Shown in pieces: positions 1 to 22,364 of a DNA stretch of 23,803 nucleotides. Within the stretch, counting starts at the first letter, position 1; each line of letters begins with the position of its first letter. This DNA is from a virus, in IMG/VR virus record IMGVR_UViG_3300028615_000080, positions 1 to 23,803 of that record; one strand, 5' to 3'. Below the pieces are notes generated by a model that was not told where the DNA came from, made no database searches, and was given only the letters and a program-made list of their open reading frames with translations. A program made the translations under genes and the position numbers.

Positions 1-1611
1 GATACTCAGACTTCCCCTGAGGTTGGCGGCGCGGTATTTTTGAAGCTGTTATATCGTGGTGGCGCTGCGTCGATTACAGACACAGTGGCGGCGGCTTCAA
101 CTAATTCGACTACTACTCTTGATTTAGTTACGGGTGGTTTGACACCAGCAGCTCATGTTGGTACTCAGGTGTATTCGGTGGAGTTAGACGAGTTTACTAC
201 TATTACGGCCAACACAGCTTCACAGATTACTGTAAGCCCAGCGTTTTCTGCAATCCCTTCTGATGCTTCGGCTATTCATATTATGACTGTAACCGAGTCT
301 GAAGGTGTTATTAATGGTTCGGCTGGTTCGGCTACTTCGTTGACTACCACTATTACTGGAGTAGCTGGGGATAACCTGAATCTCACTTTTAATGCTGGTG
401 AGACTCTTGCTGAGTTAGTGGCTCGCATTAATGCGAATACTAATTATCTGGCAACTATTCCCGCGGGTATTAATGGTGCGCTTACTGTTGTGGAGGACTT
501 TGATTTTGGGCCTAACACAACTCTAAATTTAAATAATTCTCCTACTTTAACTTCGGAAGGTTTTAGGCAGGACAATGTTGCATTAATTAACTACTTTAAT
601 ACTCAATCAGAGTATGTGTCGGCAGTGCGCTCGACTGGTGGTTCATTAGATGGTTGTTGCCCACCAAATGCTACTGCAGAGGCTTATTACTTCTCTGGTG
701 GAACTCGCGGTATTTCTACTAATACTGATTTCCAAAATGGGTTTGATGCGTTGCTGTTAGTTAGAGCAAATTCTGTTGTGCCTCTTATTGACCAAGATTT
801 GAATAATGAAGGATTTAGCAGCACTGCCACTTGGTCTTCTGTTGCAGCTCAATTAGGTGCACATGTTGTCGCAGCTAGAGGCGCTTCAACTTCTGAGCGA
901 GGTGGCTTCATTGGGTTCCGAGGAACGAAGACTGCAATTATTGATGCTGCGAATAGCCTGAATGATGCAGATGTTCAGCTGGTTTGTCAGAATCCGACGG
1001 CTCTTAATTCCGCGGGCACTCTTCAAGAGTTTGGTCCTCGATTACTGGCTGTTATTGGTGCGGGTATGCGAGCCGGTGTTGTGGAAGTTGGTGAGCCTCT
1101 TACTCACAAGTTCTTACGTGTTAGCGGCTTGACTCAGGATTCGTCTTGGGACCCGACTGACACAACTGATGCTGCTGAGTTAATCCTGAATGGTGTATTG
1201 TTTGCTGAGGCCATTGATGGATTGGGCGTTCGTTGGGTTCGAGATCTGACTACATATGTTCAGGATGATAACTTGGCGTATTCGGAAGGCTCGGTTCGAG
1301 ATGCTGTTCGGTTTACAGCTTTTGGGTTGCGTGAGACTATTGTTAATAGGTTCACGGGTAAGAAAGCAACACCAGCTACGGCGGCCAATATTAAGGATGT
1401 GGCTTCTTCGTATCTAGAGTTGCTACGCGGAGATAATATAATTGTGGATTCTACGGACCCAGCAACTGGGTCTACTGTTAGGGCTTACCATAATCTTAAG
1501 GTGGTCCTTAGTGGAGATGTTCTCAAACTTAACGTAGGGATATTCCCTGTTCCTGGAATTAACTTCACACTTCAGGAGATATTCCTTCAGCTGCCAACAC
1601 AGGCTGCTTAA
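1..1611 (+). CDS. Tail sheath protein, 5' end cut by window
   Basis: The frame is open from base 1 (it reads DTQTSPEVGGAVFLKLLYRG), so the gene starts upstream. The TTG at 40 is only an internal codon. The visible part is 536 residues. The C-terminal ~130 residues have the usual sheath fold signature: GVRWVRDLTTYV, then a basic helix region with LRETIVNRFTGK, then LLRGDNIIV and the final beta strands. The sheath polymerises around the tail tube and contracts to drive it through the host envelope. The N-terminal part carries an inserted beta-rich module (about 65-290) resembling modules in the baseplate genes downstream. A CC pair sits at SLDGCCPPNA. The position immediately upstream of tube, chaperone and tape measure genes agrees with P2 FI. 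The family call is from recognition of the C-terminal pattern, not from a search. Confidence 0.88.
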   Translation, partial: DTQTSPEVGGAVFLKLLYRGGAASITDTVAAASTNSTTTLDLVTGGLTPAAHVGTQVYSVELDEFTTITANTASQITVSPAFSAIPSDASAIHIMTVTESEGVINGSAGSATSLTTTITGVAGDNLNLTFNAGETLAELVARINANTNYLATIPAGINGALTVVEDFDFGPNTTLNLNNSPTLTSEGFRQDNVALINYFNTQSEYVSAVRSTGGSLDGCCPPNATAEAYYFSGGTRGISTNTDFQNGFDALLLVRANSVVPLIDQDLNNEGFSSTATWSSVAAQLGAHVVAARGASTSERGGFIGFRGTKTAIIDAANSLNDADVQLVCQNPTALNSAGTLQEFGPRLLAVIGAGMRAGVVEVGEPLTHKFLRVSGLTQDSSWDPTDTTDAAELILNGVLFAEAIDGLGVRWVRDLTTYVQDDNLAYSEGSVRDAVRFTAFGLRETIVNRFTGKKATPATAANIKDVASSYLELLRGDNIIVDSTDPATGSTVRAYHNLKVVLSGDVLKLNVGIFPVPGINFTLQEIFLQLPTQAA

Positions 1612-1642: not shown

Positions 1643-2917
1643 ATGCCTACTTTGCCTAATTTGACTACAGATTTTCTGACGAGAGTTAAGAATGATTTGT
1701 CGGTAGGCTCCGACCTGGCTACACCAGGTTCAGGCGATATCCGGGGTGCGGCTGCGAATTATGTACGTGCTCAGGATATGGCTACTGTGTTGGAGCTGCT
1801 GGCGGATTCTCTTAGCAAAACTATTGCCACGGCGACACTAACTTTTTCCACCAATGCGGCTAACGCTGAAACCGTTACCATTGGGGGTGTAGTGTATACC
1901 TGGGCTACTTCGCCATCGGCTGCTTATGAAGTTGATGTGGGGGGTACTGCTGCTGCTTCTGTTACTAACTTGGTGGACGCAATTAACGGCACGGGTACTC
2001 CAGGCACAACGTATGGTGAGGGTACAGAGCCTCACCCGGTTGTGACTGCGGTGGATGGTGCTGGTGACACAGTGGTTGTGTCTGCTACTCATGCGCCTGG
2101 TACAGCTGGGAATATTACCACTGGTGAAACTATGGGTGGTGGCTCTTGGGATGGCAATCTAACTGGTGGTTCGGATGGTCTTCCTTTAACTGCGACAGGT
2201 GGTTCAACGACTACTTTTGTGGATGGGGCCTCTACATTTGTGGCTGGTGCTCATGAAGGATGGACGTTTACATTTGATGCGGCGACTACAACTGCAGATC
2301 TTCGTGGTGTGAGTGCGGTAGTTGCTTCTAATACTACAACTACTTTGACTTTCACTTCTACTTTGCCAGCGGCAGTGGTTTCGGGTGATGATGGTGTGTT
2401 AGTCAATACGGCTCTTGATGGACATGTTTTGGAGCTTCGTCAGGGTCGTACAAATCGTGCGGATGCCCCACCGGCTAATGTGTATGGTACCAATCGTCAG
2501 ATGACTGATGCTCTGATTATTCTTCTGAACCAAATGGGCGGAACATTATCGGAGCGTACTCTTAGTCGTCCAGGTTTACAGACAGGTACTGGTTCTACTA
2601 CTACACGAGTAGTTTTGGCTACTGCGGACATTCCATTTAGGATTGATGAATTCAAGAATGCCAAGGTGGCTGTTAGTGGTGAGACTCCTCGTTTTGCAAT
2701 TAGTAATGATGAGTCTTCGGTTCTTTTAAATGCGGCATTGTCTAGCGCGCCTTCGTCTGGTACGGCAGTTACGATTACTGTTCCAGCGGATACAGCGAAT
2801 AGTAACTTTGTTAAGACGGTGACGCACCCAGGCGGGCAGCCAGGGGAAAATGCATACTTGTCTGATTTGGTTCAGCAAGTCCAAGATGCGGTTGAAGCAT
2901 TTACGTTGCCCACGTAA
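1643..2917 (+). CDS. Structural protein of unknown role between sheath and tube
   Basis: This 424-residue protein is not one I recognise by family. The N-terminal ~60 residues look helical (FLTRVKNDL, MATVLELLADSLSKTI). Residues ~60-180 form a Thr/Gly/Val-rich beta domain (ETVTIGGVVYTW, NLVDAINGTG) of a kind common in phage virion proteins. Residues ~183-255 are a second beta module that closely matches part of the 1111-residue baseplate protein (16170-16410), including the shared string LPAAVVSGD. The C-terminal part (LIILLNQMGG, LVQQVQDAVEAF) is partly helical. There is no signal peptide or membrane segment. It follows the sheath by 31 bases with a good RBS and is followed by a terminator, so it probably shares the sheath transcript and is virion-associated. 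In P2 and Mu, sheath and tube are adjacent, so this gene is an addition. It could be a sheath-terminator, collar or decoration component, which is inference only. Confidence 0.7.
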   Translation: MPTLPNLTTDFLTRVKNDLSVGSDLATPGSGDIRGAAANYVRAQDMATVLELLADSLSKTIATATLTFSTNAANAETVTIGGVVYTWATSPSAAYEVDVGGTAAASVTNLVDAINGTGTPGTTYGEGTEPHPVVTAVDGAGDTVVVSATHAPGTAGNITTGETMGGGSWDGNLTGGSDGLPLTATGGSTTTFVDGASTFVAGAHEGWTFTFDAATTTADLRGVSAVVASNTTTTLTFTSTLPAAVVSGDDGVLVNTALDGHVLELRQGRTNRADAPPANVYGTNRQMTDALIILLNQMGGTLSERTLSRPGLQTGTGSTTTRVVLATADIPFRIDEFKNAKVAVSGETPRFAISNDESSVLLNAALSSAPSSGTAVTITVPADTANSNFVKTVTHPGGQPGENAYLSDLVQQVQDAVEAFTLPT

Positions 2918-3508: not shown

Positions 3509-3988
3509 ATGAAAAAACAGCATATTTTTGAGATCAATTATAGGTCAGAAGTTGATGACACCACTTATAGTGGAACTTTTACGGCTAAGAAGTTATCAGT
3601 TCGAGATCAATCTAAACTTAATGTAAGAAAGGCTCAGTTGAATGGTGGACTTTACCACATGCCCGACAATCCTGGATGTGGTATTGATGAATACACAGAC
3701 GAGTTTAATCAAATTTTGGCTCACCTGGAAGTGGCTATTATCAACGCTCCCCAGTGGTGGGATTTGGATCAGATAGGGGATAGCGGTGTTATTGTCGAGG
3801 TCTTTAAGGAGGTGGCCACTTTCGAAAATAGCTTTCTTACACGAGGGAATCAAGACCTCCATACAGGACAGCAATCACTTAGTCAGTCTGGCCAAGGCGG
3901 AAGCCAAGAGAATGTTGGTCAAGCCAACTCTACAGGAGCAGCTTCAGTTGTGGTGGACGAAAAAGTACAATCTGCCTTGGAACCATAA
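3509..3988 (+). CDS. Tail assembly chaperone, short (zero-frame) product
   Basis: This 159-residue protein is the gpG/gpE-type chaperone that coats the tape measure protein during tail assembly and is absent from mature virions. Residues 1-~105 form the conserved part: beta start (HIFEINYRSEVDD), TFTAKKLSVRDQSKLNVRKAQ, NQILAHLEVAIINAPQWW, and IVEVFKEVATFENSF. A Gln/Gly/Ser-rich tail follows. An AGAGGGG RBS lies directly before the ATG. The last ~25 bases overlap a second frame that encodes the conserved extension, reached by frameshift near 3960-3965. The position between tube and tape measure is the standard one. Confidence 0.85.
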   Translation: MKKQHIFEINYRSEVDDTTYSGTFTAKKLSVRDQSKLNVRKAQLNGGLYHMPDNPGCGIDEYTDEFNQILAHLEVAIINAPQWWDLDQIGDSGVIVEVFKEVATFENSFLTRGNQDLHTGQQSLSQSGQGGSQENVGQANSTGAASVVVDEKVQSALEP

Positions 3989-4352
3989 TCTGTTTCAGTC
4001 TAGTTCAGTAGAAGATCTCCTAGTTGAGTTTTATGTAGATCTGTTTATGGAGATGCCTTCGGAGAAGTATCGTCAAGAAGATGGTACATACCGCATTACT
4101 GATTCAGACGACCCATATATTAATAAGTGGGAAGAGGAGATTGCTTCTGGCGCCATTCCTAATATGGAAGAGGCGTTTACTCCTGCCCAGTTGGAGTGGT
4201 ATAAGAGAATTAGAAAGAAGCAGTCTGTCTTAGTTGACCCAGCTTTTAATAGAAGTTTGAGCCCGTCTAGTACTCAAACTAGACGTGTTTCTTCTACTTC
4301 TAAAGGGCCTTCATGGCAGACTTTAGAAGATATGCAGTTTGGTGATGAATAA
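3786..4352 (+). CDS. Frameshift extension of the tail assembly chaperone (gpGT-like T part)
   Basis: This frame is open from 3777, but the GTG at 3786 has no RBS and the residues before ~3963 look like a shadow of the chaperone frame. The meaningful part starts at KKYNLPWNHNLF (from 3963) and continues with VEDLLVEFYVDLFMEM, ITDSDDPYINKWEEEI and a Ser-rich end, about 130 residues to the stop at 4352. This is the typical C-terminal extension of chaperone fusion proteins made by recoding. The extension binds tail tube subunits while the N-terminal part binds the tape measure (known for lambda gpGT). It lies one base forward of the chaperone frame, so a +1 or -2 shift is needed. The stop overlaps the next ATG (TAATG). 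Confidence 0.8.
   Translation: MLLSRSLRRWPLSKIAFLHEGIKTSIQDSNHLVSLAKAEAKRMLVKPTLQEQLQLWWTKKYNLPWNHNLFQSSSVEDLLVEFYVDLFMEMPSEKYRQEDGTYRITDSDDPYINKWEEEIASGAIPNMEEAFTPAQLEWYKRIRKKQSVLVDPAFNRSLSPSSTQTRRVSSTSKGPSWQTLEDMQFGDE
3959..3967 (+). other. Probable programmed frameshift site (GAAAAAGTA)
   Basis: In the chaperone frame the codons are GAA AAA GTA. A tRNA-Lys on AAA can slip +1 onto AAG (3963-3965) or -2 onto the first AAA (3960-3962). Both land in the frame that reads YNLPWN. The joined proteins would read VVVDEK-YNLPW (+1) or VVVDEK-K-YNLPW (-2). The zero frame stops at 3986-3988, 21 bases downstream, and the second frame is open throughout the overlap. Confidence 0.65.
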
Positions 4353-4645
4353 TGCCCCCTAAGTCAGCCGTAACGCCCAAGTTTAATGCTCTTATTAAAC
4401 AGTTTAAAGAGCTGAGGGAAAAGAGTATGGGCGATGCTCGTACTAACCTTAGGGATTTAACTAAAGTACAAGGTACTACTACTAAAATATATGATGTTCA
4501 GGCTAAGGCTGATAAAGCACATACAAAAGCCTTAAAAGAGCAGCTTAAGCTTCAAGAAAAGATGTTTAAGCTTCAGCGTCAAATGATTTCTGATGGAGGG
4601 GGGGGCTTGGCTTTATGCCTCGTAGGTGGATGCCTGCTGCCTTAG
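4352..4645 (+). CDS. N-terminal part of tape measure protein, or small coiled-coil protein
   Basis: This 97-residue frame begins at an ATG overlapping the chaperone-extension stop (TAATG). Residues ~10-85 are a strongly charged helix (FNALIKQFKELREKSMG, KALKEQLKLQEKMFKLQRQM) typical of the start of a tape measure protein. It ends shortly after a G8 tract with an unlikely Cys/Leu/Gly tail (LALCLVGGCLLP). A -1 shift at the tract joins it to the next frame as SDGGGGLGFMPRRW, giving a tape measure of about 685 residues with a coiled N-terminus followed by a hydrophobic segment. It may be a recoded gene, an assembly error in the homopolymer, or a true separate gene. Confidence 0.7.
   Translation: MPPKSAVTPKFNALIKQFKELREKSMGDARTNLRDLTKVQGTTTKIYDVQAKADKAHTKALKEQLKLQEKMFKLQRQMISDGGGGLALCLVGGCLLP
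4598..4605 (+). other. G8 tract at the tape measure frame break
   Basis: Eight consecutive G lie where the 97-residue frame (codons GGA GGG GGG GGC) meets the -1 frame that encodes the rest of the tape measure. The -1 frame is open from 4594. Ribosomal -1 slippage (G GGG GGC), polymerase slippage adding one G, or a sequencing undercount of a G9 run would all restore one continuous frame. Confidence 0.7.
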
Positions 4646-6381
4646 CTGCGGGAGCTATTTTTAGTTTAGTTGGTGCGATTCGAGGCCAATTTAGTGGGGC
4701 TATTGATAAGTACGCGGGTACATTAAAAGCTCGTAGAGGTATTGCAGCTGGTATACCTACAGGTCAAGCTGAGTCATTATATGGACTCGGTGGGGGTATG
4801 TTTGCTCCTGAAGAGGTCTTACAGCAAGCTCGTCCACTTACTCGGGCTGTAGGTGTTAGAGGGCAACAGTTTCCTAAAGCTGCTTTAAACACTATCTTAA
4901 CTTCTGTTGTGGAGGATATGATAGAATTCCCACAAGCTCAGGGTTTTATGAAAACTTTAGTTCAGGCTGGTGTTCCCACACAACAGTTTGTGTCTGAGGG
5001 TGGACAGGGTATTCGTATATACAAAAAGGTTACAACTGATGCTTTTGCTTCTGGTTTAGAGAAGGGTCGTTTTGGGGAGCATCTTGAAAACGTAGATATG
5101 ATTGCCCAGTCTATAGGGCAAGCACAACCAGGGCGCATTGATGCAGCTGCTATTTCTAGTTTATTAGCTGAGCTAGGAGCCATTGGTCCTGGATTTAGAG
5201 GAGAGCGTGGTAGGGGTACTTTGGCTACTTTGCAGCAGGGCTTTATGACTGCGGCGATGGGTGGTGGAGACCCTGCGGCGCGTGCTTTAATGCTTCAATC
5301 TCAGGGTTTTGGCATGCCCGGGGCGGGTCGAGTTAGTTTTTTTGAGGCTATTCGAGGACTTGAGGAAGGTTTAACAGCGGATAATTTAAAGAAAGCTTTA
5401 GACGTTTCTATCCGTGCTGGAGGTATCAGTGCGGGTGAGAATCCTGCTGAATATGCTGGGTTTATTCTAAAAAATATGTTTAAAGGACTGTCACAGACTA
5501 GGTCCGAAGCTTTGTTAGAAGCTTTTATGGCGGGCGGAGCTGATTTAGAGAAAAACCCAGCATTGCGTAAGCAGTTGAAGCTTGCTCAGGAAGAAACAAA
5601 GCCTTTAGATAAACAGACTGTAGAGGAGTTACAAACTAGTAATCAAATTAACAGAGAGTTAATTGGGCAAGGAAAAGAGCTTTTTAAAGTATCTCAGGAT
5701 ATTAGACACGAGTTGGTGAGCTTAATTGGTCAGCTTTTGCCTGTGGCTAAGGATATATTACTAGCGGTTAAGGATTTGGTTAGATTGGTTAGTAAGGCTG
5801 TTGAAGCTTTTAAGAGTTCTTTTACGGCTGAGGAATTTGCTGAAACTCAGGTTGAAAAAATTAGAGCTGTTTCAGATCCTGATGAACAGATGAAGTTACT
5901 GAAAGGTAATTTAGAAGCAGCTCGATTGGCTTTTAAGAGTGATGCGCCATTAAAGGATCGCAATGATTGGATTGGCAATATTGCTAAGGGTTTACGTAGT
6001 AAGGCTAATGCCGATATACAAAAGTTAACTCTTACTCCTGGTATGGAGATGCCCATGAGGGTTTCCGACCAAGAGAAAATAAAGCAGCAGCATTTACAAT
6101 CGTCTTATGATGAGTTTGTGAAGATTATCAATGAGGATTTAAAACAGCTTGAGGAATTTAAAAAGAACAAAGATAAAGCTGACCAAGATGCGAAAAGAAT
6201 GGAAAGAGAGGATAGGCAACGACGAGAGCGGGAGAAGACAGAGCAGCAGTCTCGTAGAGAGGACACTATTAAAGATACTCTTAAAGCAGAACTAGGAGAT
6301 AGAGCTGCTAGTATGATTACGAGTGCGAAGAGTTCTGGGATTCCTACTCCTCATGTAGCTTCACGAAGTAAGCCTGTTTAA
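4615..6381 (+). CDS. Tape measure protein (main part)
   Basis: This 588-residue protein fits the tail tape measure, which sets tail length and occupies the tube lumen before DNA release. Residues ~5-22 are hydrophobic (AALAAGAIFSLVGAI). A helical, Gly/Ala-rich middle contains several amphipathic segments, including one at ~360-400 (LVSLIGQLLPVAKDILLAV). The C-terminus is a highly charged coiled coil (KRMEREDRQRREREKTEQQ) ending in a Ser/Pro-rich tail. The ATG at 4615 has a G-rich sequence (GGAGGGG) rather far upstream, so independent initiation is possible. However, the Gly linker and helix encoded just upstream in another frame suggest fusion with the 97-residue frame. The position after the chaperone supports the call, which rests on architecture since tape measures diverge strongly. 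Confidence 0.82.
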   Translation: MPRRWMPAALAAGAIFSLVGAIRGQFSGAIDKYAGTLKARRGIAAGIPTGQAESLYGLGGGMFAPEEVLQQARPLTRAVGVRGQQFPKAALNTILTSVVEDMIEFPQAQGFMKTLVQAGVPTQQFVSEGGQGIRIYKKVTTDAFASGLEKGRFGEHLENVDMIAQSIGQAQPGRIDAAAISSLLAELGAIGPGFRGERGRGTLATLQQGFMTAAMGGGDPAARALMLQSQGFGMPGAGRVSFFEAIRGLEEGLTADNLKKALDVSIRAGGISAGENPAEYAGFILKNMFKGLSQTRSEALLEAFMAGGADLEKNPALRKQLKLAQEETKPLDKQTVEELQTSNQINRELIGQGKELFKVSQDIRHELVSLIGQLLPVAKDILLAVKDLVRLVSKAVEAFKSSFTAEEFAETQVEKIRAVSDPDEQMKLLKGNLEAARLAFKSDAPLKDRNDWIGNIAKGLRSKANADIQKLTLTPGMEMPMRVSDQEKIKQQHLQSSYDEFVKIINEDLKQLEEFKKNKDKADQDAKRMEREDRQRREREKTEQQSRREDTIKDTLKAELGDRAASMITSAKSSGIPTPHVASRSKPV

Positions 6382-11402: not shown

Positions 11403-13483
11403 TGGTTCTTAATTCAGCATTAGGTGTTTTAGGGGGAAATAGGGAAGCTAAGCTGGAACAAGCTGTGATTCCCACGGCTTTATTTTCCCAAGCATTTGCC
11501 TATGCTGTGAATGGGGAAATATTAACTACTACTATTAAGAGGCTTTATTCTTTGGCTTTATGGGAGCTAGAAGAGGGCCGTGTTCTGCCTATTGATGATT
11601 TAGATACTCATAACGGTACAGATGGCACGTCTAAAGCTGTTAAAGCAGAATTCTTCTTTACAGTACCTCCTAAGATTCATGAGGTTGGAGAGCCATATGC
11701 AACTCGTATTGTACCAACACAAAACGGTGGTAAGTATGTTGAATCGCATGGTGTGTTAATTCGGGAGATTAGGTTACAGGGTACAACTGGTCTGCGACCT
11801 AATAAGCCATTATCCCCTGGAACTGCTTTTGCGTCTAGATTAGGTCCTTTAGCTGGTCCGGCTAATTCTTTAGTTGGTCCAATTATTAATAGAGGTGATA
11901 GGCTAGTTGAAACAGCTACGGGATTAGCAGACTCAGCAGTGGAGTTATTTACTGGTAATGCGTCACAAGACCGAGACTTGCGGGATAAGTCTGAGAGAAC
12001 TGGCTGGGATGACATGATGTTTCTACGAAATATTTTTCGTAGATATTCTGATATTCAGAAATCTAATGAGAATTCCTCTAATGTAGTGATGGTGTGGAGG
12101 AATGCTAAAGATTCAGAATACTGGGTAGTGGAGCCAAAGGAGTTTAAGTTATTACAGAGTTCTACTTCTCCTTTGACATATCAGTATGTGATTACACTTA
12201 GTACTATTTCTAGGTTAGACCTAACTGTTGATATGGGTGAAGATCCTTTACAGTCTATCAGAGCTGGCCAGAAGTTTTTGTCGAGATTACAGAAAGCCAA
12301 TAAAGAGATTGTTAATACATTTTCAGTGGTTTCTACTCAGCTTAATCGTCTGGAATCAGCTGGTATATTTGCTAAGAACTTATTGAGTACGTCTTATAAG
12401 AATGTTTTAGATGCTAATAAAGCTGTGATTTCCACGGCTAATAATTTTAAGCCTGCTTTAGTTGGTGCGTGGCAATCTCTGAAAGCTGAGCAAGAAAGGG
12501 CATACCATATTGCTTCGGCAAAGTTTGCTTCGACGACTATAGATCCTACACAACCCATAGGATCTGTGTCTCCTATTACAGCTCCTGGAAGTGCTGATGA
12601 TATTATTTTCTGGTCTGACTCTTCTAATTCGTTTTTAAAAGCTCTGAGGGCTGCTACTAGAGTTTTAACTGAGCCTTCTCTCCATAACTCTGTACAGAAT
12701 CAAACTGATGACCGTCGAAATAGAGCCTTAGGGTCATACCGGTCAGGTATTGTGTCTGGGACTGTAGCTGGTACTGGGCCCGATACAGGAGGCTCTAGGG
12801 GGTTTTTGGGTAATCAAAGTTACGGTGGGGCTTTGTCTAGGGCTGAAATATGGACTAATGACGATATTAAATCTTTGGCTAAGAGGTTATTAGGTAGTCG
12901 GGATCAGTGGCATATTTTAGTTATTATTAATGATTTACGAGCCCCTTATATTAGTTCTGCTGGTGGAGATGGTGTGCTTAGGCCGGGTGATTTTATTTTG
13001 TATCCTTCTAAGGAGCGAGGTGGGGTTTCGGCATCTAATCTAAATGAGACTGATTTAGAGAAAGATCAAAAGGGCCAGAATATTGACACGGCTGTTGAAC
13101 GGGCATATGGCCGAGATTTGAGACTGTCTTTAAATTCGAAGAATAAGTCTGATATTTTTATTAGTGAAGGGGATTTTGGAACTATTGTTGGTATCCCAAA
13201 TGTGAAGCAGGGTATTCGATTAAAGCTAGCAACTGAACAAGGTGAACTAACTGTTCATCCAAAATATGGTTTAAGGGTTCCAATAGGCACTAAAGCAGAG
13301 ACTTCTTCGTTTAATGAGTTTATTATTAATGTTCATGCTACCTTGGCAAGCGATGTACGTATTAAGTCGGTAAAGAGTTTAGATTTATTGTCTCGTGGGG
13401 ATATTGTAAGTGTAGCAGCTGAGTTGATATTACGAGATGTTGCTGATCCGGTTTCAGTTGCTGCTGCAATTAGGAGTTTGTAA
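11402..13483 (+). CDS. Baseplate wedge protein: N-terminal domain, LysM-like domain, gp25-like domain
   Basis: This 693-residue protein combines parts that are usually separate. Residues 1-~475 are unassigned; the middle is helical (FLSRLQKANKEIVNTF, SAKFAS). By position it may correspond to Mu gp43/gp53-type tail proteins. Residues ~480-535 form a LysM-like unit (IKSLAKRLLGSRDQWHILV, INDLRAPYI, then LRPGDFILYP). Residues ~584-693 match the gp25/gpW wedge family (DFGTIVGIPNVKQGIRLKL, GELTVHPKYGLRVP, SVAAELILRDV). gp25 links the sheath initiation ring to the wedge. In T4, the LysM-containing gp53 and gp25 are separate neighbours in the inner baseplate, so a fusion makes structural sense. TAATG overlaps are present at both ends. 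Confidence 0.8.
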   Translation: MVLNSALGVLGGNREAKLEQAVIPTALFSQAFAYAVNGEILTTTIKRLYSLALWELEEGRVLPIDDLDTHNGTDGTSKAVKAEFFFTVPPKIHEVGEPYATRIVPTQNGGKYVESHGVLIREIRLQGTTGLRPNKPLSPGTAFASRLGPLAGPANSLVGPIINRGDRLVETATGLADSAVELFTGNASQDRDLRDKSERTGWDDMMFLRNIFRRYSDIQKSNENSSNVVMVWRNAKDSEYWVVEPKEFKLLQSSTSPLTYQYVITLSTISRLDLTVDMGEDPLQSIRAGQKFLSRLQKANKEIVNTFSVVSTQLNRLESAGIFAKNLLSTSYKNVLDANKAVISTANNFKPALVGAWQSLKAEQERAYHIASAKFASTTIDPTQPIGSVSPITAPGSADDIIFWSDSSNSFLKALRAATRVLTEPSLHNSVQNQTDDRRNRALGSYRSGIVSGTVAGTGPDTGGSRGFLGNQSYGGALSRAEIWTNDDIKSLAKRLLGSRDQWHILVIINDLRAPYISSAGGDGVLRPGDFILYPSKERGGVSASNLNETDLEKDQKGQNIDTAVERAYGRDLRLSLNSKNKSDIFISEGDFGTIVGIPNVKQGIRLKLATEQGELTVHPKYGLRVPIGTKAETSSFNEFIINVHATLASDVRIKSVKSLDLLSRGDIVSVAAELILRDVADPVSVAAAIRSL

Positions 13484-15336
13484 TGGTATTTACCCCGAGA
13501 ACATTTCCGGAAATCTTGAACGACATGGTAGCGTACGTTCAAGCCAATACTGAACTAAGTGATTTTTCTCCTGGTTCGTTGATTAGGACTATTTTAGAAG
13601 CTGCTTCTCTGGAGGATGATGAACAATACTTCCAGATGATTCAGCTTTTGAATATGTTCGCTATTGCTTCTTCTAGTGGCGCGGATCTCGACCGTAGGTT
13701 AGCCGAGTATAATATATATAGACTGCCCGCTAAAACGGCGTTTGGTAGAGTTCGTTTTTCTAATACTTTATTAATTACAGATAATGTGGCGTTAGATGCT
13801 GTGGCTGGTGCTACTTCGGTCACTCTATTTGACACAACTGGTTTCCCTACATCTGGATACCCATATACTATTCGTATTGGTGAAGAAGGACTTAGTGTTC
13901 AAGATGTGGATGTGACAAATAATGATACTGCGTCAGCCACATTCACACTTAGTGGTACCACAACTCTTGTTTCAGATATTGCGGTTGGGGATAGAGTGTC
14001 TCTAGTAACTGGTGGGACAACTAAATTGATTGCCATTGGTACGGAAGTAGAGGCGCCAGCGACCGTTAGTTCTGCGGTTAAAAAGTATGTAACTCAAGAG
14101 CCTGCTACTATTGAAGCTGGTAACTTCTTTTCTAATTCTGTATTAGTGAAAGCAAATAATGCAGGACCCACAGGCAATACTGGTGTAAACACGGTTACTA
14201 AATTTACAGGTGGAGACCCCTTTGTTGGAGCGGGTGTAACAAATATTACAGCTATTGAAGGTGGTGAGAGAACCGAGTCGGATAAGTTGTTTAGAGAAAG
14301 AGGTCTACAACAGCTGCAATCTCTCTCTAGGGGAACTCCGTTGGCTATTAAGTCAGGTGCCACTGGTGTTGAAGACCCCTCTACTGGGCAACGTGTGACC
14401 TCAGCTAATTTGCTTGAGGATTTTGTTGAGGATTTGGTTAAAGTTTTTATTGATGATGGTACTGGTTTTACTCCGGATAGTGCATCTAGAGGCGTTAATA
14501 ATCTAAATACTGCTGCAACTGGAGGCTCTACAGATGTGTTAGAGGTGGATGATGGGTCTTCTTTCAGCTCTTTTGGGTCGGTTTTGTTGTTGAACACTGT
14601 GGGTGACCCAACGGTAGATACTGAGCTAGTAACTGTCATTAGTAAAAATAATGTGTTTCTTACTTTAGATGCTGCGGTGGCGAATAGTCATGTGGTGGAT
14701 TCGCAGGTCTTAGAGGTTGATGTCCTAACTTTGTCAGCGGAAACGGGGCAACGTAGGTTTAGAATCCAGAATATGCCAGTTATTTTTAATACTGAGCGTA
14801 TTCTTATTAAACGTCCTGTAGAAAACTGGCAAGAACTGACAAGAGACACAGACTATATTATCAATTATGGTTTAGGCGAAATACAAATTATAGATGTTGG
14901 TGGCTTACCAGAAGGTACAATAGTGGTGGCCCACTATCAGTACTACACAAACCTGATTGCTCAGGTTCAGAAAGTATTAGAAGGTGATTTAGATGACCCG
15001 ATTAACTTCCCTGGTATTAAAGCAGCCGGTATCACTTTACGAGTAGAAGCTTCAGTTCCTAAGCGTATTAATGTTCGTATGACGATAAGCGCAGAGGAAG
15101 GATTCCTGGAGACTGATTTACGAGACCCGGTTCGTAGAGCGGTTGAGGATTATATTAATAGTTTGACCCTCGGTGAAGAGGTTATTGTTAGTAAGTTTAT
15201 TGATGTAGCATATGATGTTGTGGGGGTGAAAAATGCAATTGTTCAGGAGCCCACGGCTAGTACTGTTGTTACTCTAGAAAATGAATTACCTGTGGCATTC
15301 GACGTTAATGGTAATTCTACTGTGATTGTTACCTAA
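13483..15336 (+). CDS. Baseplate J / gp6-like wedge protein
   Basis: This 617-residue protein begins on a TAATG overlap with a good RBS (AGGAG, 6 bases before the ATG). The N-terminus is a typical baseplate J start (FPEILNDMVAYVQ, DFSPGSLIRTILEAA at ~28-41, SSGADLDRRLAEYNI). The C-terminal ~120 residues continue the family pattern (GITLRVEASVPKRINVRMTI, LRDPVRRAVEDYINSLTLGE, FIDVAYDVVGVKNAIV). Two beta modules, at about 13793-14010 and 14515-14715, are extra relative to a minimal J protein and resemble repeats in the next gene. J/gp6 subunits form the dimeric ring of the wedge that opens when contraction is triggered. Confidence 0.87.
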   Translation: MVFTPRTFPEILNDMVAYVQANTELSDFSPGSLIRTILEAASLEDDEQYFQMIQLLNMFAIASSSGADLDRRLAEYNIYRLPAKTAFGRVRFSNTLLITDNVALDAVAGATSVTLFDTTGFPTSGYPYTIRIGEEGLSVQDVDVTNNDTASATFTLSGTTTLVSDIAVGDRVSLVTGGTTKLIAIGTEVEAPATVSSAVKKYVTQEPATIEAGNFFSNSVLVKANNAGPTGNTGVNTVTKFTGGDPFVGAGVTNITAIEGGERTESDKLFRERGLQQLQSLSRGTPLAIKSGATGVEDPSTGQRVTSANLLEDFVEDLVKVFIDDGTGFTPDSASRGVNNLNTAATGGSTDVLEVDDGSSFSSFGSVLLLNTVGDPTVDTELVTVISKNNVFLTLDAAVANSHVVDSQVLEVDVLTLSAETGQRRFRIQNMPVIFNTERILIKRPVENWQELTRDTDYIINYGLGEIQIIDVGGLPEGTIVVAHYQYYTNLIAQVQKVLEGDLDDPINFPGIKAAGITLRVEASVPKRINVRMTISAEEGFLETDLRDPVRRAVEDYINSLTLGEEVIVSKFIDVAYDVVGVKNAIVQEPTASTVVTLENELPVAFDVNGNSTVIVT

Positions 15337-18300
15337 TGAGTACAGAAAAAACACAAAGCCAAATTAAAGAAGTCCGGGACCAAATGTCTTTGGACTTCTC
15401 GGATGGTCGATATTTAAATACTATTTCAACAAATTTAGGTATTGCTCGTCCTCGTATTGGTTTGTCTGATTCTGAATGGCGGGCGATTGTTAAAGCTATC
15501 GCTTTGCATTATAAGCAGGTTAGAACTGCTTTTGCAGCGGTGTTGTCTATATTTTTTGGCCCTCGTATTACCGTGGGAACAGCATTATCCCAAGACGCTG
15601 TAGTGGGCGATACTAGCATTTTTGTACTTGATACTAGGGAATTTCCGCAAGTTGGCACTATTGTTATAGACGAAGGATTAGGAACTGAGGAAACAGTTGA
15701 ATATTGTTATATAGACCGCACCACTGGTGAAATGTTTTTGGAGACTGCGTTAACCCAGAATCATACAGCTCTTTTAAGTGATGCGGAGACAAATCTATTG
15801 TTTGATGTTCCTAATGGGTCTAATTCTCTTATTGTCGAGGATATTAGTCAGTTTCCAGATTTATCCCCTTTTGTAAATTATCCTATTATTGTGGGCGCTG
15901 GAACTGTCAATGAAGAAGTATTAACTGTTAGTGCTGTTGACCACGAAAATCTTACCCTTACTACATCGGCCATAAATAACACTAGACTAAGTGCTTTGCC
16001 TTCGTCAATTAGAACTACTGTTGCAAGAGATTATAGTACTATAACTACTCCCACTGTTTTAACTAATAACTCTTCTTTACTACTAACTGTGGCGGATGCA
16101 TCCCAGTTTCCAGAAACAGGAACGGTAATATTGAGTGCCTTGGGGCCTAAAACTATAAGCGCTTCTGTGTTTACGGCGAATGGTGGGTCTACTTCTACTA
16201 TTACAGTTCCGACTATATCGGCTCCTGATTTACCAATATTAGCCAATGAAACTCATGCGGGGCATCGAGTTGTATTTGAGCCTGATACTACCACAGCCGC
16301 CTTGCGTAACATAGAAGTTACGGTTTTGACCAATACCGAGACTAGTATCACATTGGTGGAGACTTTACCTGCGGCGGTGGTTTCTGGGGATACGTTTAAA
16401 ATACGCCCCGTTGTTAGTTATTTTAATGTAGACTATGACACTAATGTTCTTTCTTTAAATAAAGTTATTACGGATGTTTTGATTGAAGATCAGTTGGCGG
16501 TACATACAGATACGGCAGCTGCTGGTTCTGATAGTCTAAATATAGTTTTAACTACTGGTGGATTAACGGCAAATGAGTTTAGGGGCTATGTTGTTCAGGT
16601 TGGCACAGAACAATCAGTGATTTCTAGCCACTCTTCCCCTGCAGATACTCTAGTGTTGAGTACGGCTTTGATGGATGCTACTCCAGCTGGGTCTACCGTT
16701 ATTATTTATGAGTCTGTAGATGTAGAGCTTTTGTCTTTTAGGGAAACGGTTCATGTAGGACAGGTAAAATCAGTAGGGACAGGCTGGGATATTTTTCAGA
16801 CTGACCCCCTTATTATAGATGTTCAGATACCTGAAGATTTAGTAGAAGAAAGAGATTCTCGTAGTGGTGGGTATATACACACAACTTATGATTCTACTAT
16901 TCCTAATACTACTTTAGCTTCTGGTGTTACCGCTGGTGATTCATTTTTCTTGGTGTCGGATCCTACTGATTTTCCTATTGTGGGGGTAGCTATTCTAGAT
17001 GCGGGTGGCGGTAATCAGGAAAATGTTGCTTATTTCAATCCGAGAAGTGTTACTACTGATTTTAATGCTTCTGGGTCTACTACATTAGTTGTAGAAAATA
17101 GTTCGCTATTCGGAAATTCCGGGTCTATCATTTTAGCTGAAAATACAGCGATACAAGAAACCGTTACCATTTCAGATAATAATGAGGGTACTAATACTCT
17201 CACTGTCAGTTCTCTTACTAATACGCATTATACTGGTACATTAGTTCGGTCTGTACAGTTTAATGTTCCAAATAGTACGTTGGCTAACACTCATAGTGGT
17301 GGTACTTCGGTTGATTTGTATCAACCCTTTCATTTAAATAGTTCTTTACCTTTTAATCTAATCCCGCCTTTTGGGACGTTAACACAGGGATTGGACGGTA
17401 ATGCGCATCTTATAGATGATGTGTTTTATGGTCCTTATATGTATCGTAATAGTGGATCTATGAACCCGGAGGTACTGATCAATGCCCCAGCTTTTGGTAC
17501 TGGATCCACTACTCTGTCTGAATTATTACCAGGTCCTACTAGGATGGCCATAGATCAGCAAGTAGGGTCCATCACATTAGAAGTAGAGAATGCCACTGCG
17601 TTTGATCTAACTAATTTTCCATATTCAGTACGTGTAGGTGCTGGGACTGGGAATTTGGAGACGGTATCAGTTGCTGATATTTCATTGAAGCAGCGAACGT
17701 CAACATCTGTGAGTGTCGCAACTGCGGGGTCTTCGGTAATTACAACTACTGGATTATTAGATACCTCTTCGGGTATTAGTAATGGTATTGCAGATTCCTT
17801 TCCAGTTTCTACTGATTATATGGGGTATCGTATTGTGATAGATAAAGATGGCTCTAATGAAGAAGTTGCCTATGTGGTGTCCGCAGCTGGATCTGATCTG
17901 ACATTAGAAAGCCCACTAGTAAGTACGCATGTTTCGGGAGAGCGTATTTTACTAATGTCCGATGTATTAGTATTATCGTCTGCCACAGCTGATGATCATG
18001 AGGGTATTGTAGGTTTGGATGATCGTACGGTACGGTGGCCAGTTTTAGCTTCGTCCGATTTCAACACTGCTGAGAGTGTCTCTCCTTTGCTTTCAGGTAT
18101 GCTAATAAATGATGTTACTGGGTTTTCTGAAACTGGGGATGATTTTTATTTGAATTTTAGTGGTGTTCTTAAAGATGTAAAAACTTCTATTGTTGGTAAT
18201 CCTGCAGGCGGTTCGACGTCCATTGTTGTAGATAGTGTTGTTGGGTTGCCAGATTTTTCTATTACAGATTTTATTATTACTATTGCGCCTGGTGCTTTAG

Positions 18301-18671
18301 TAGAAGAAAATATGCGGGTTATTGGTGTAAATCCGGGTACAAATACTCTTACTTTAGCATCTAGAACATTATTTGATCACACCGATAATACTCCTGTTGT
18401 TTTCGAGGCTTCAGGTATGAAGTCTATTGTAAATACACAGGAATTTTTAACTTATAATTCTATCAGTGGGAATACGCTTAGCTTTTCTTTTCCAATTGTG
18501 TTACAATTTAATCATAGTCCTGGAGAATCTGCCGTTGTTTCTAAAGTAGACAGCGAGCCAAGGGACAATGGATTCGATTTCCCGTTTATATTGACTCCGG
18601 AAGCTAGTTTTAGGGTTGCTACAATTTTGGATTTGGTAAGAGCAGCTGGTGTAAATATCCGATTTAGTTAA
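15336..18671 (+). CDS. Repeat-rich baseplate protein in the gpI/gp7 position
   Basis: This 1111-residue protein overlaps the J stop (TAATG) and has no clear RBS, so it is probably coupled to J translation. The N-terminal ~80 residues are helical (SLDFSDGRYLNTISTNLG, SEWRAIVKAIALHYKQVRTAF), as in gpI-like wedge proteins that bind J. The bulk is at least eight related beta modules with the pattern xxLxVxDxSxFPxxGxIxI...E.V.V..., for example TSIFVLDTREFPQVGTIVI, SNSLIVEDISQFPDL, SLLLTVADASQFPETGTVIL and DSFFLVSDPTDFPIVGVAIL. The C-terminus (FPFILTPEASFRVATILDLV) again looks like a conserved attachment region. It probably connects the wedge to spikes or fibres. I cannot assign a firm family to the whole protein. 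Confidence 0.72.
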   Translation: MSTEKTQSQIKEVRDQMSLDFSDGRYLNTISTNLGIARPRIGLSDSEWRAIVKAIALHYKQVRTAFAAVLSIFFGPRITVGTALSQDAVVGDTSIFVLDTREFPQVGTIVIDEGLGTEETVEYCYIDRTTGEMFLETALTQNHTALLSDAETNLLFDVPNGSNSLIVEDISQFPDLSPFVNYPIIVGAGTVNEEVLTVSAVDHENLTLTTSAINNTRLSALPSSIRTTVARDYSTITTPTVLTNNSSLLLTVADASQFPETGTVILSALGPKTISASVFTANGGSTSTITVPTISAPDLPILANETHAGHRVVFEPDTTTAALRNIEVTVLTNTETSITLVETLPAAVVSGDTFKIRPVVSYFNVDYDTNVLSLNKVITDVLIEDQLAVHTDTAAAGSDSLNIVLTTGGLTANEFRGYVVQVGTEQSVISSHSSPADTLVLSTALMDATPAGSTVIIYESVDVELLSFRETVHVGQVKSVGTGWDIFQTDPLIIDVQIPEDLVEERDSRSGGYIHTTYDSTIPNTTLASGVTAGDSFFLVSDPTDFPIVGVAILDAGGGNQENVAYFNPRSVTTDFNASGSTTLVVENSSLFGNSGSIILAENTAIQETVTISDNNEGTNTLTVSSLTNTHYTGTLVRSVQFNVPNSTLANTHSGGTSVDLYQPFHLNSSLPFNLIPPFGTLTQGLDGNAHLIDDVFYGPYMYRNSGSMNPEVLINAPAFGTGSTTLSELLPGPTRMAIDQQVGSITLEVENATAFDLTNFPYSVRVGAGTGNLETVSVADISLKQRTSTSVSVATAGSSVITTTGLLDTSSGISNGIADSFPVSTDYMGYRIVIDKDGSNEEVAYVVSAAGSDLTLESPLVSTHVSGERILLMSDVLVLSSATADDHEGIVGLDDRTVRWPVLASSDFNTAESVSPLLSGMLINDVTGFSETGDDFYLNFSGVLKDVKTSIVGNPAGGSTSIVVDSVVGLPDFSITDFIITIAPGALVEENMRVIGVNPGTNTLTLASRTLFDHTDNTPVVFEASGMKSIVNTQEFLTYNSISGNTLSFSFPIVLQFNHSPGESAVVSKVDSEPRDNGFDFPFILTPEASFRVATILDLVRAAGVNIRFS
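16170..16410 (+). repeat. Beta module shared with the 424-aa sheath-proximal protein
   Basis: The translation aligns with residues ~183-255 of the protein at 1643-2917 (DNA ~2190-2409). Shared elements in order are TANGGST/TATGGST, TTTAALR/TTTADLR, VVASNTTTTLT versus VLTNTETSITL, and the identical LPAAVVSGD. The two copies are about 14 kb apart. Confidence 0.75.
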
Positions 18672-18686
18672 AAGGTACAGTAATAT

Positions 18687-21600
18687 ATGCCAAAGAAAGT
18701 ATTAATTCATCCCAATCAAAGAATTGATTTACCTGATTGGACTAGAGCTGCTAATGGGTACACTGCGGATGTTGCGTCGGTTGCTGTGGATAGGCAGATT
18801 TTAGATGCTCGTCCGTTGGCTTTAGATGGATTTAGAATTCGGGTTCCGGACCAAACATTAGAGCCTGGGGTAGTCTATATAAAAAATGGTAATGCGTTTG
18901 ATAGGGAAGGTAAACTTCTTAACGATGAAGACACGGTTGATGAAGAAAAACAAGTAACTTGTACAGGGGCTTCCACAACTTTTTATATTGAGATTGAATA
19001 TGTTGAGTCCCAGTCTGATGTGGATGCTCGGGTTTTTTGGGATCCTACGGTAGCTAATACGTCCCCAATTCCTGATGGAGAGGAGTTTTCGGATAATGTT
19101 ACTACTCGCTTGACTCCTTCGTGGAGGCCGGTAAATCCTCCTTCTACAACTGGTTTTGCAGTTGTTACAAATCCTAATAGTAACCGAGTTCCTATCGCAG
19201 CTGTAGATACAAACGGGTCTAATGAAATTGATTTAACAGGCATTACTTTAGTCCAGCCTTCCACTGTTACTTTACGGGAGAACGACACTCCCACGATTCT
19301 ACATGTGGCTGATGCTAGATTATTCTCGTCTGTTACTGGAGAAAATGAGGTTACGTTAACTACTCCGGATACTCCTGCAATACCTACTTCCACTATTATT
19401 CGTAACGTAGTTAGTGTAGATAAAGTTAATAATCGTTTAACTTTGAATTCTAGCCCGGGTGCAGTTTTAGCAGGCACTCGTGTACAAGCAACTGGATTAA
19501 CAGCTGATTTATTATCTGAACGGGTGAGGGCTCTTCGTACCGCTAGTTCTGTGGTATACGATAATGTTGAACGTGTTTTTCAAGGTGACACAGAAGCTGG
19601 GGCTGGTTTAATTGTAGATAAAGAAGATCCTACTCTACGTAATGATTTAAATGTTCGTAGTTTAAAGAATTACGTGGATTTTATGGCGGGTCAGTTGAGA
19701 GATTTGCGTTGGGGTCACCCTCATCCGCAAATTACATCATATGCGCCTCCGTCTTCATTTAGTGGATACGATAAATTACATTATACCCATAGTGGCGGTA
19801 TTGCTGGTGCTCGTTTTGCTCATATTAGCGTAGGTGATGGTGTTAATTCGTGGGGCGATTTTAATGGGAATGATGAGACTGAATTACAGCAAGCTTTTGA
19901 TGCTTTACAAGGTGTTGGGGGTGTCATACATATTAAAAAGGGTACTTATACTATTAATAGCCCAATAGTTATTTCGGAGTCTACATCTATTAAATATGAA
20001 ATTCTGTTGGACCCTACTACTACGTTAACCACGCCCTTAGATCATACTGACCCTGTTTTTGATTTTCAGGGTCCAGTAAGTATTTATATCAAAGGCTCAA
20101 ATAGATTCACTAGTCTTATAGGTCATGGAGGTGCGGCTAGTTCCAGCACTATTCTGAATCAAAAAGCCATTGATTTAGATGAAGATGTGGCTTCTTTTTC
20201 CATACAGAGTTGTGCCATTGTTGGCTCAGTGTTGATGCCTTCTACAGCGAATTTGGTTCTGTATAGTGAAATTGATTGTGAGCATATTGATCTTAATCTA
20301 ACTGGTGTGTCTACATCAGCATCAGATACGCCTTTAATAGGCAACTCTACTCCTTCAGATATTAGGCAAGTTTATCTACAAAATACAAAATTTCAATTAG
20401 TTGGAGGTTTGGATTCCAGTATTGTTAGGTTTAATGATGTTGATTCTTTAAATGTTTCTAATTGTGAATTATCTATGGGTGGGAATACTCTTCCTTTTCG
20501 TATAGATAATATTGCTAGTAATTTATCGATTAAGAATAACACGTTAGTGATGTCTAATTCTACTCAAGGTTGTGGGTTCTTAAAAGCTTCCAGGGTGTTA
20601 AATGGTGTTATTTCTGATTTAACTGTTGATACTGGTGGGAATACGTTAACATATGGGGCTACTACCTCTGCTTTTATTGACATCGCTTCATTTTTGAATT
20701 TCAGTGTTAAAGATGTAGGTTTTGCTAATTCTAGTGGTGTTTTAGGCTTTCATGATCGGTTTTTTCATTTTGCCACTACTGCGGCCGACCCAGTTACAGT
20801 TCATCATAACTTAACGATAGATAATGTAACTCTTAACTTAGGCGGGTCAGCTTTTACAGCTATTACTACAGGTACAATAAACAACATATATAATCTTTCT
20901 TTAAAGGATTGTGTTATTGAGAATATGGCATCGGGAGTTAGTTTTCATGTTCCTGGTAGATTAAGTATTAAAGACTGTACTATTGATGGACAGTTGAGTT
21001 CTTCGGCTCAACGGGGGGTCGTCTGCGGTAGTCAGGCGGGAGCAGGTACACGACAGATTATTCAAATTGACGATTCTGAAATCCGAAATTTACAGAGTAC
21101 TACGGCCGGTAAAATTTGTGGGGTGCTAGTTAATGCTGCAACAGGAGAAATAGATCTTCACGTTAAGAATTTGACTATTTCGGATTTGGGAAATTCAGGT
21201 ACAACTTCTACTAGTCTTTGTGCTGGTATATATCTTGATTCACTTAACGATTATAAGAATGTTATAGTTAAAGACTGTTCTATTAAGGGACTTAAAGCGG
21301 CGCCTACTTCTACTATCATAGGAGTGGGTGTTGTGGGTCAGTTTGATTCGGCCACTAAGCCGTTTGTGTCTGTGTGTTCTAATAATATTTCTGATTTAGG
21401 TCAGGTAGGAGATTCTGGCTCTGCGTGTTATGGGGTTAGGCTTACTTCGTCTGATTCTGGTACCAATATAGTTTCTAATGTTAAGATAGAAGATAATCAG
21501 ATTTCAGATTTAAATACTCCTAATAATACGAACACAGCAATTTCTGTGCGAGCGGATACGGTACTGTCTACTAGTGTGGAAGGTAATGTGATTACCAATG

Positions 21601-22364
21601 TTTTAGGTAGTACTCCTATATCGGAGTCTGGCGGGATTATTGATATTGGTACAAGCGGTTCGTTTATTAGTGTTCGCAGAAATACTATGAATCAGTCTCT
21701 TACAGCACGAGGCGGGGCTGGTATTCAATTTATCTCTAATCTTGATACAGATGTGTTCTCACATGTAACTGTGGAAGGTAATAAGATTCATGGGGCCAAT
21801 GCACTCAATACGAATGGATTAGTACACGGTGTTCATTTAGTTGGGGTGATTGGGTCTACATCGGCTACTACGTTTAACCAGACTGTTATTGAATCGAATA
21901 CAGTTGAGTTGAATCAGACGGACTACACAATTGTGTCTTCTGGGGTGAGAGTTAATAATATTCAGGGCTTGGGTGTTTCTGTTTGTAGAAACATTGTTAA
22001 TGAAACTGCTTTTAATCAAGGTAGGCAGGGTGTCTTTGTAAGCGGGCCTATTATTGGTGGTGAGAAAAAGTTGGTATTGGTTAAAGTCGATGGGAATACT
22101 GATGTGAGTATTTTGATTGCTACATCAGAAAGTGGAGTGGCTGAGGGTAATGTTATTAGGCCAAGTGCAGGTGCTGTGTCTATGGATATTGTTTCTTCTG
22201 TGAATACCTTAGCAATGGGTAATGTGTTGGGTAACTCTGCGGAGACTGGCGGTGTTAACGGACATGATCGAACCGACCGAGTTGTGGCGATAGCAGGAAC
22301 ACCAACACAGGTCTCAGATACGCAGGCGGCTGGTGCTGATAATCATTATTTGAATATAGTATAA
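18687..22364 (+). CDS. Tailspike with parallel beta-helix, possible glycan-active receptor-binding protein
   Basis: This 1225-residue protein follows after a 15-base gap with RBS AAAGGT. Residues 1-~180 look like a particle-binding part (MPKKVLIHPNQRIDL, LALDGFRIRV, FYIEIEYVESQ), followed by a beta module (~190-265) like those in the preceding gene. From ~380 it has the classic start of a pectate-lyase-like right-handed beta-helix (ETELQQAFDALQGVGGVIHI, KKGTYTINSPIVI). It continues with about a dozen rungs marked by motifs such as KDCTIDG, EDNQISDL, EGNVITN, EGNKIHG and ESNTVEL, spaced 31-40 residues. The C-terminal ~60 residues are a short cap. Such spikes bind and often cleave capsule or O-polysaccharide; no catalytic residues can be named here. 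Confidence 0.82.
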   Translation: MPKKVLIHPNQRIDLPDWTRAANGYTADVASVAVDRQILDARPLALDGFRIRVPDQTLEPGVVYIKNGNAFDREGKLLNDEDTVDEEKQVTCTGASTTFYIEIEYVESQSDVDARVFWDPTVANTSPIPDGEEFSDNVTTRLTPSWRPVNPPSTTGFAVVTNPNSNRVPIAAVDTNGSNEIDLTGITLVQPSTVTLRENDTPTILHVADARLFSSVTGENEVTLTTPDTPAIPTSTIIRNVVSVDKVNNRLTLNSSPGAVLAGTRVQATGLTADLLSERVRALRTASSVVYDNVERVFQGDTEAGAGLIVDKEDPTLRNDLNVRSLKNYVDFMAGQLRDLRWGHPHPQITSYAPPSSFSGYDKLHYTHSGGIAGARFAHISVGDGVNSWGDFNGNDETELQQAFDALQGVGGVIHIKKGTYTINSPIVISESTSIKYEILLDPTTTLTTPLDHTDPVFDFQGPVSIYIKGSNRFTSLIGHGGAASSSTILNQKAIDLDEDVASFSIQSCAIVGSVLMPSTANLVLYSEIDCEHIDLNLTGVSTSASDTPLIGNSTPSDIRQVYLQNTKFQLVGGLDSSIVRFNDVDSLNVSNCELSMGGNTLPFRIDNIASNLSIKNNTLVMSNSTQGCGFLKASRVLNGVISDLTVDTGGNTLTYGATTSAFIDIASFLNFSVKDVGFANSSGVLGFHDRFFHFATTAADPVTVHHNLTIDNVTLNLGGSAFTAITTGTINNIYNLSLKDCVIENMASGVSFHVPGRLSIKDCTIDGQLSSSAQRGVVCGSQAGAGTRQIIQIDDSEIRNLQSTTAGKICGVLVNAATGEIDLHVKNLTISDLGNSGTTSTSLCAGIYLDSLNDYKNVIVKDCSIKGLKAAPTSTIIGVGVVGQFDSATKPFVSVCSNNISDLGQVGDSGSACYGVRLTSSDSGTNIVSNVKIEDNQISDLNTPNNTNTAISVRADTVLSTSVEGNVITNVLGSTPISESGGIIDIGTSGSFISVRRNTMNQSLTARGGAGIQFISNLDTDVFSHVTVEGNKIHGANALNTNGLVHGVHLVGVIGSTSATTFNQTVIESNTVELNQTDYTIVSSGVRVNNIQGLGVSVCRNIVNETAFNQGRQGVFVSGPIIGGEKKLVLVKVDGNTDVSILIATSESGVAEGNVIRPSAGAVSMDIVSSVNTLAMGNVLGNSAETGGVNGHDRTDRVVAIAGTPTQVSDTQAAGADNHYLNIV

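Follow-up and report, generated by a model that had tools for sequence, protein, structure and literature searches.

The window analyzed here, the whole 23,803-base stretch of DNA corresponding to a complete IMG/VR virus record, looks from its sequence like a contractile-phage tail block, with its genes in the order of sheath, 424-aa ORF, tube-like protein, tape-measure candidate, M23-peptidase protein, DUF2345 protein, tube-initiator/gp25-like protein, J, 1111-aa protein, and fibre. The last three are as follows.

13483..15336, forward strand: baseplate J protein, 617 aa, with two modules inside (PF04865; phrog_6)
15336..18671, forward strand: I-like baseplate protein, 1111 aa, enlarged by nested modules (N-terminal domain homology, gene order)
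18687-22364: fibre/tailspike-like protein, 1225 aa

The J protein matched PF04865 with an E-value of 1.3e-14 and 54.6 bits, exceeding the curated cut-off of 21.1, and also matched the baseplate wedge family phrog_6 (E = 4.4e-38). The 1111-aa protein showed no wedge-type Pfam match, no tblastn match among annotated phages, and a weak match to the baseplate family phrog_4056 (E = 0.022). Its N-terminal domain aligned with the proteins encoded after J in a second group of relatives (group 2, described below; hhalign E = 1.3e-11), the 375-aa homologues matched the baseplate protein family phrog_1160 in 20 of 20 cases, and the gene order of J, 1111-aa protein, and fibre fits that of a P2 gpI-like or baseplate wedge protein. 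Elsewhere in the block, two ORFs directly before the tape-measure region (3509-3988 and 3786-4352) overlap in different frames and may encode a tail assembly chaperone pair made by frameshifting, and the tape-measure candidate (4615-6381) starts within the end of a 97-aa ORF (4352-4645), possibly reflecting a split gene, a frameshift, or a sequencing error.

A preliminary description of this DNA had pointed to at least eight units of a small beta module in the 1111-aa protein and two in J. A seed HMM was built from seven units picked by eye from the window and, in order to limit circularity, was retrained solely on relatives, which were taken from 65 loci on viral contigs found with J. This window-excluded HMM recovered eight units in the 1111-aa protein (residues 90-143, 161-212, 250-292, 532-566, 578-631, 744-793, 819-865, and 959-1015) and two in J (residues 108-161 and 352-403), with none in the reversed sequences, and the coordinates given earlier were also found to be correct. 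Over all loci it gave 291 matches of at least 8 bits, as compared with zero in the same proteins reversed, and class profiles trained without the window found most units at their own place. With two nested modules of another type (residues 280-357 and 391-461) included, the 1111-aa protein holds approximately 10 modules, in addition to a split C-terminal unit. Pairwise hhalign comparisons between the position classes yielded E-values below 1e-5 in 42 of 45 pairs, demonstrating at the level of profile similarity that all units are homologous and constitute one family. The family has no Pfam model and is thus currently unannotated, and a few PHROG tail-fibre families match some of its members. 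A scan of genome contigs identified no relatives.

The two modules in the J protein were delineated as follows.

13783..14022, forward strand: J module 1, residues 101-180, a clean insertion (class profile, cut test, absence in relatives)
14509..14718, forward strand: J module 2, residues 343-412, a clean insertion (profiles, cut test, absence in relatives)

J module 1 scored 94.9 bits against the window-excluded profile of its class. Neither module is present in the J proteins of three relatives (L064, L066, and L067), which have clean boundaries at both places. When module 1 (approximately 80 residues) was excised from the window protein, its score against these module-less proteins rose from 31.0 to 58.3 bits (shuffled tails gave no more than 20), while excision of module 2 (approximately 72 residues) raised it from 65.6 to 94.9 bits (control, approximately 21). 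Since J proteins without either module and, in distant relatives, a 375-residue version of the 1111-residue protein both exist, the modules are, on the evidence of these alignments, real insertions, and the earlier view that they outnumber what a minimal baseplate needs was borne out.

The layout of the 1111-aa protein proved to be more elaborate, as summarized below.

15348..15566, forward strand: conserved helical N-terminal domain, residues 5-77 (hhalign; helices in the model)
15588..15791, forward strand: U1, residues 85-152 (95.9 bits to its class profile; single-unit model pLDDT 86.5)
15801..16016, forward strand: U2, residues 156-227 (unit profiles)
16068..16757, forward strand: U3, residues 245-474, interrupted by U4 and U5 (whole in relatives; cut test)
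16173..16406, forward strand: U4, type B, residues 280-357, between strands 2 and 3 of U3 (window-excluded type-B profile, 47.7 bits)
16506..16718, forward strand: U5, residues 391-461, inside U3, present in the window only (low model confidence here)
16917..17327, forward strand: U6a, residues 528-664, interrupted by U6b (whole in relatives; cut tests in relatives)
17052..17252, forward strand: U6b, residues 573-639, inside U6a (profiles, strand pattern)
17541..17735, forward strand: U7, residues 736-800 (65.2 bits to its class profile)
17736..17957, forward strand: U8, residues 801-874 (48.5 bits to its class profile)
18075..18539, forward strand: terminal unit, likely ancestral, residues 914-1068, interrupted by U9 (whole in group-2 proteins; cut test)
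18189..18410, forward strand: U9, residues 952-1025, inside the terminal unit (profiles; nearest to J module 1)
18540..18668, forward strand: conserved C-terminal domain with an LVRAAGV motif (orthologue alignment; group-2 terminal profile, which extends over residues 1047-1110)

An alignment of 16 orthologues revealed that a unit which is intact in certain phages can be interrupted by another module elsewhere, a nesting that had been overlooked in the preliminary description. Thus, U3 is whole in five relatives (L020, L021, L022, L025, and L030), and cutting approximately 150 residues out of it took the score of the window protein from 10.8 to 28.4 bits, a value obtained without a shuffled control, and that of L006 from 16.0 to 30.0 bits (control, at most 10). 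Likewise, with U9 removed, the terminal unit fitted at 27.6 bits instead of 16.0 (control, 8). U6a is whole in L009, L020, L021, L022, and L025; the cut test for U6b was not significant on the window sequence itself, and this nesting was retained on account of the relatives, namely L003 (22.5 to 60.5 bits; controls, 33-41), with further support in L006 and L019. The cut points are uncertain by approximately 10 residues, because the nested modules resemble their hosts. Taken together, these comparisons of related sequences established that modules are nested in other modules at U3, U6, and the terminal unit. In one relative, L030, the U6 loop holds a LamG/concanavalin-like lectin domain instead (residues 414-570 of the I-like protein, L030:11842-14952; PF13385, E = 2e-24), and once this domain was removed the fit was 108 bits, up from 52 (control, 59). 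L003 (10001-13594) alone carries a long GG.DG-type insert in U8 (residues approximately 850-960), which by eye is similar to a stretch of the window's 1643-2917 ORF.

The relatives fell into groups with differently built baseplate genes. Two units in J, six to eight in the next protein (820-1197 aa), and one in the fibre are found in the closer group (L003 to L032 and others). In group 2 (L033 to L063), complete copies of J are 1037-1420 aa long and are followed by a protein of approximately 375 aa, the C-terminal part of which contains one uninterrupted unit (32.7 bits in L034, and a weak match at the corresponding place in most of the others); whole-length profile-profile comparison of the I-like proteins recovers the N-terminal domain only, so that the C-terminal link is formed by these weaker profile matches. 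The large J and small next protein of group-2 loci such as L033, L037, and L053 are the reverse of the arrangement in the window, and one or two modules were recognized in the enlarged J. Matches to the main-type profile were confined to the three adjacent genes in seven related phage records of 125-171 kb. Among isolated phages, the 1925-aa J-like protein of Myxococcus phage Mx1 (L097:7980-13757) contains one unit (E = 2.9e-10) and, by appearance, other small beta modules. A 187-aa ORF lying directly before a divergent I-like baseplate gene (L094:5405-5968) looks by eye like a ferritin-like four-helix protein.

Whether the units had multiplied within or between genes, a question which the preliminary description had proposed to address by phylogeny, was assessed with a tree of 153 units, which rests on few columns and in which the position classes are clear and the deep branches unresolved. 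The units grouped by position with 15 label changes, against a minimum of 9 and a mean of 110.9 under shuffling, none of 200 shuffles being as low, and same-position units of different phages were approximately 30-50% identical. As the units cluster by position and not by genome, the main array is older than the split of these phages, and the duplications are demonstrated by this grouping of sequences to be old. The two nearest classes were J module 1 and, in the gene that follows, U9 (hhalign E = 1.1e-25), indicating that duplication crossed genes. Recent tandem duplication was ruled out by the clustering by position and by the absence of long DNA repeats in the window. The idea of a mobile structural module expanded by duplication was therefore upheld insofar as the units are homologous, structural, duplicated, and have crossed gene borders, whereas recent mobility of the main array found no support from the same two observations. 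Both J modules, U1, U2, U7, U8, U9, and nearly all fibre units were kept in all 18 aligned relatives, while the unit number differed among relatives, with single modules gained or lost.

Related modules were also located outside the J and I-like genes, those in the sheath gene and the 424-aa ORF having likewise escaped the preliminary description.

103..261, forward strand: sheath-gene module, kin to an insert in the I-like protein of L006 (phmmer iE = 5.5e-7)
2189..2389, forward strand: type-B module of the 424-aa ORF that follows the sheath gene (type-B profile, 40.9 bits)
19293..19496, forward strand: fibre/tailspike unit, residues 203-270 (fibre-class profile, 15.1 bits, against 3.3 for the best reversed hit)

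The tailspike unit proposed earlier was thus confirmed weakly; a clear unit occupies this position in 17 of 18 aligned fibres, that of the window being the exception. When the L006 insert was searched against the window ORFs by phmmer, the best reversed value was 0.23, as compared with that of the sheath given above, and the insert of L019 gave no significant match in the same ORFs. The type-B site of the 424-aa ORF (1643-2917) was also matched by the 1111-aa protein in tblastn (E = 8.4e-7), and the type-B module represented by U4 was found in three genes, namely the I-like gene, this ORF, and the group-2 J genes (up to 71 bits). The ORF itself had no Pfam or PHROG match and seemingly consists of two or three modules, one being type B and one ending in GGSDG.

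To gain insight into the fold, an AlphaFold2 model of the full-length 1111-aa protein was built with 25 sequences (mean pLDDT 73.2), in which the strand pattern is repeated across units, most having a pLDDT of approximately 85-92, and in which the relative placement of the units is not reliable at a pTM of 0.41. A model of a single 77-residue unit built with 93 units reached a pLDDT of 86.5 and a pTM of 0.70. Approximately six strands were found around U1, U6b, U7, and U9 in the full-length model, and four strands of at least three residues plus bridges in the isolated unit. In a Foldseek search of solved structures, the confident matches of the single unit were nearly all phage proteins, including the Chi tail tip, the Mystique tail tube, and the tailspikes of AP22, K64-1, Phi92, K1-lyase, LKA1, and phi297, with weaker matches to the JBD30 hub and V-ATPase barrels; the E-values were modest (0.004 and up), as expected for 77 residues, and we relied on the probabilities and the consistency of the list. 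Its matches in predicted viral structures were to J-like, fibre, sheath-containing, and tail-assembly proteins. The isolated unit matched no Ig or FN3 structure with confidence, and an Ig-like Pfam match appeared in only 1 of 93 units, marginally (E = 0.027). According to the model, the unit fold is therefore a small beta barrel and not an Ig sandwich, so that the comparison with Ig-like domains drawn earlier did not hold, in line with the published barrels (PMC5701251; PMC11445458), and by predicted structure the units belong with the phage insertion-barrel fold. In sequence searches, no match to LKA1, phi297, or AP22 and no significant match to the barrel tailspikes was found, and the best match to a solved member was weak (8rk3_o, residues 490-555, E = 0.056). 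A match to 6xi1 (E = 6.6e-5) was rejected as homology, as it rests on repeated short 'EG..ET.TV' stretches. A full-length match of the 1111-aa protein to one known protein was also discarded (8rk3_D and 8vjh_B, rmsd above 30 Å and TM below 0.15), and only local matches were used.

We consider it rather probable, at about two chances in three, that one barrel family was inserted long ago into three tail genes, became nested, and acts as a structural scaffold. In such a scenario, copies of a small beta-barrel domain would have entered permissive loops of the J wedge, the I-like protein, and the fibre at an early time, and later copies would have entered loops of the modules already present, giving rise to nested modules. 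The extra barrels may project from the conserved wedge core and pack on each other and on neighbouring wedges, serving as stiff spacers and as cement, by which the baseplate would be made wider and the fibre supported; host binding would presumably be the task of the fibre or, occasionally, of an inserted lectin domain. Such a structural role is likely by analogy with the JBD30 and P22 domains described below, given also the conservation of positions in 18 relatives and the paucity of sugar-binding features.

The preliminary description had also raised the binding of surface glycans, and units acting as glycan-binding domains through which the virion touches the host surface weakly at many points, a role put forward for phage Ig-like domains, would be compatible with the LamG domain in the U6 loop of L030 and with the unit in the fibre/tailspike-like protein; moreover, a similar barrel forms part of the polysaccharide-cleaving groove in LKA1 gp49 and KP34gp57, so that a direct glycan role is conceivable. 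The Trp content of the units, however, is 0.29%, as opposed to 0.59% for the full proteins and 3.2% for LamG, their shared pattern is composed mostly of glycines and of apparently core or turn residues, and no unit matched a carbohydrate-binding family in Pfam. Glycan binding by the units is thus neither shown nor favoured, direct binding is not supported, and we regard this explanation as unlikely. Less likely still, the units could be near-neutral passengers, spare domains collected by large phages in assembly-tolerant loops with no specific function: most positions are kept in 18 of 18 aligned relatives despite identities of approximately 30-50%, which suggests selection, even though the unit number is variable, single modules come and go among relatives, and the peripheral additions of sheath proteins similarly scale with genome size (PMC9230969).

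Beyond the structural scaffold itself, we tentatively propose, with slightly less than even confidence, that self-nesting could be a general mechanism by which the baseplates of large phages grow, barrel loops accepting both their own copies and LamG-like domains. If so, the wedge would grow like nested boxes and would provide a docking frame for new surface functions, leaving the core undisturbed. The loop that contains a barrel in most phages and LamG in one is a candidate site for gaining surface functions, and the relatives devoid of individual modules form a natural series with which the role of peripheral domains in contractile baseplates can be studied. This case thus illustrates how large phages can enlarge their host-facing part.

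The insertion fold itself is known, such barrels having previously been described singly in tailspikes, hubs, and capsids; what is new herein is the number of modules, their nesting, and their spread over three adjacent genes. Domain shuffling among phage tail proteins is documented (PMC10684548), and extra peripheral domains of sheath proteins increase with genome size (PMC9230969). Phage Ig-like domains (Fraser et al., 2006, as cited in PMC10684548; compare the extra sheath-protein domains of PMC9230969) are also peripheral beta domains added to structural proteins and swapped between genes, but they are beta sandwiches, whereas the units of the window are predicted beta barrels. The insertion (I) domain of the P22 coat protein, which likely stabilizes subunit contacts, was reported by the LKA1 authors to be structurally similar to the tailspike barrel (PMC5701251); it resides in a capsid protein, and its link to our units is made via that comparison, as the searches did not retrieve it directly. 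The small six-stranded barrel of JBD30 (domain VI) was reported to stabilize the baseplate (PMC11445458), and the unit matched the JBD30 hub (8rk3_D) at 2.4 Å and 23% identity, the matched part being only presumed to be domain VI, as well as the Chi tail-tip protein (8vjh_B) with a probability of 1.00 at 2.6 Å and 26% identity. Both are likewise tail-tip proteins, although of siphophages, whereas the array of the window belongs to a contractile phage and lies in its J and I-like proteins. A close parallel is found in the tailspikes LKA1 gp49 and AP22 gp54, in which a six-stranded barrel similarly interrupts a host domain (PMC5701251; PMC10653864), a domain listed in several tailspikes in the KP34 paper (PMC10653864). 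The unit matched 4ru4, 4ru5, and 4y9v with Foldseek probabilities of 0.96-1.00 and shared with the tailspike barrel its published likeness to the V-ATPase N-terminal barrel. In these tailspikes, one barrel is set in the beta-helix and forms part of the enzyme groove, whereas in the window approximately 10 are contained in a baseplate protein, with others in J and the fibre, and some are nested within one another.
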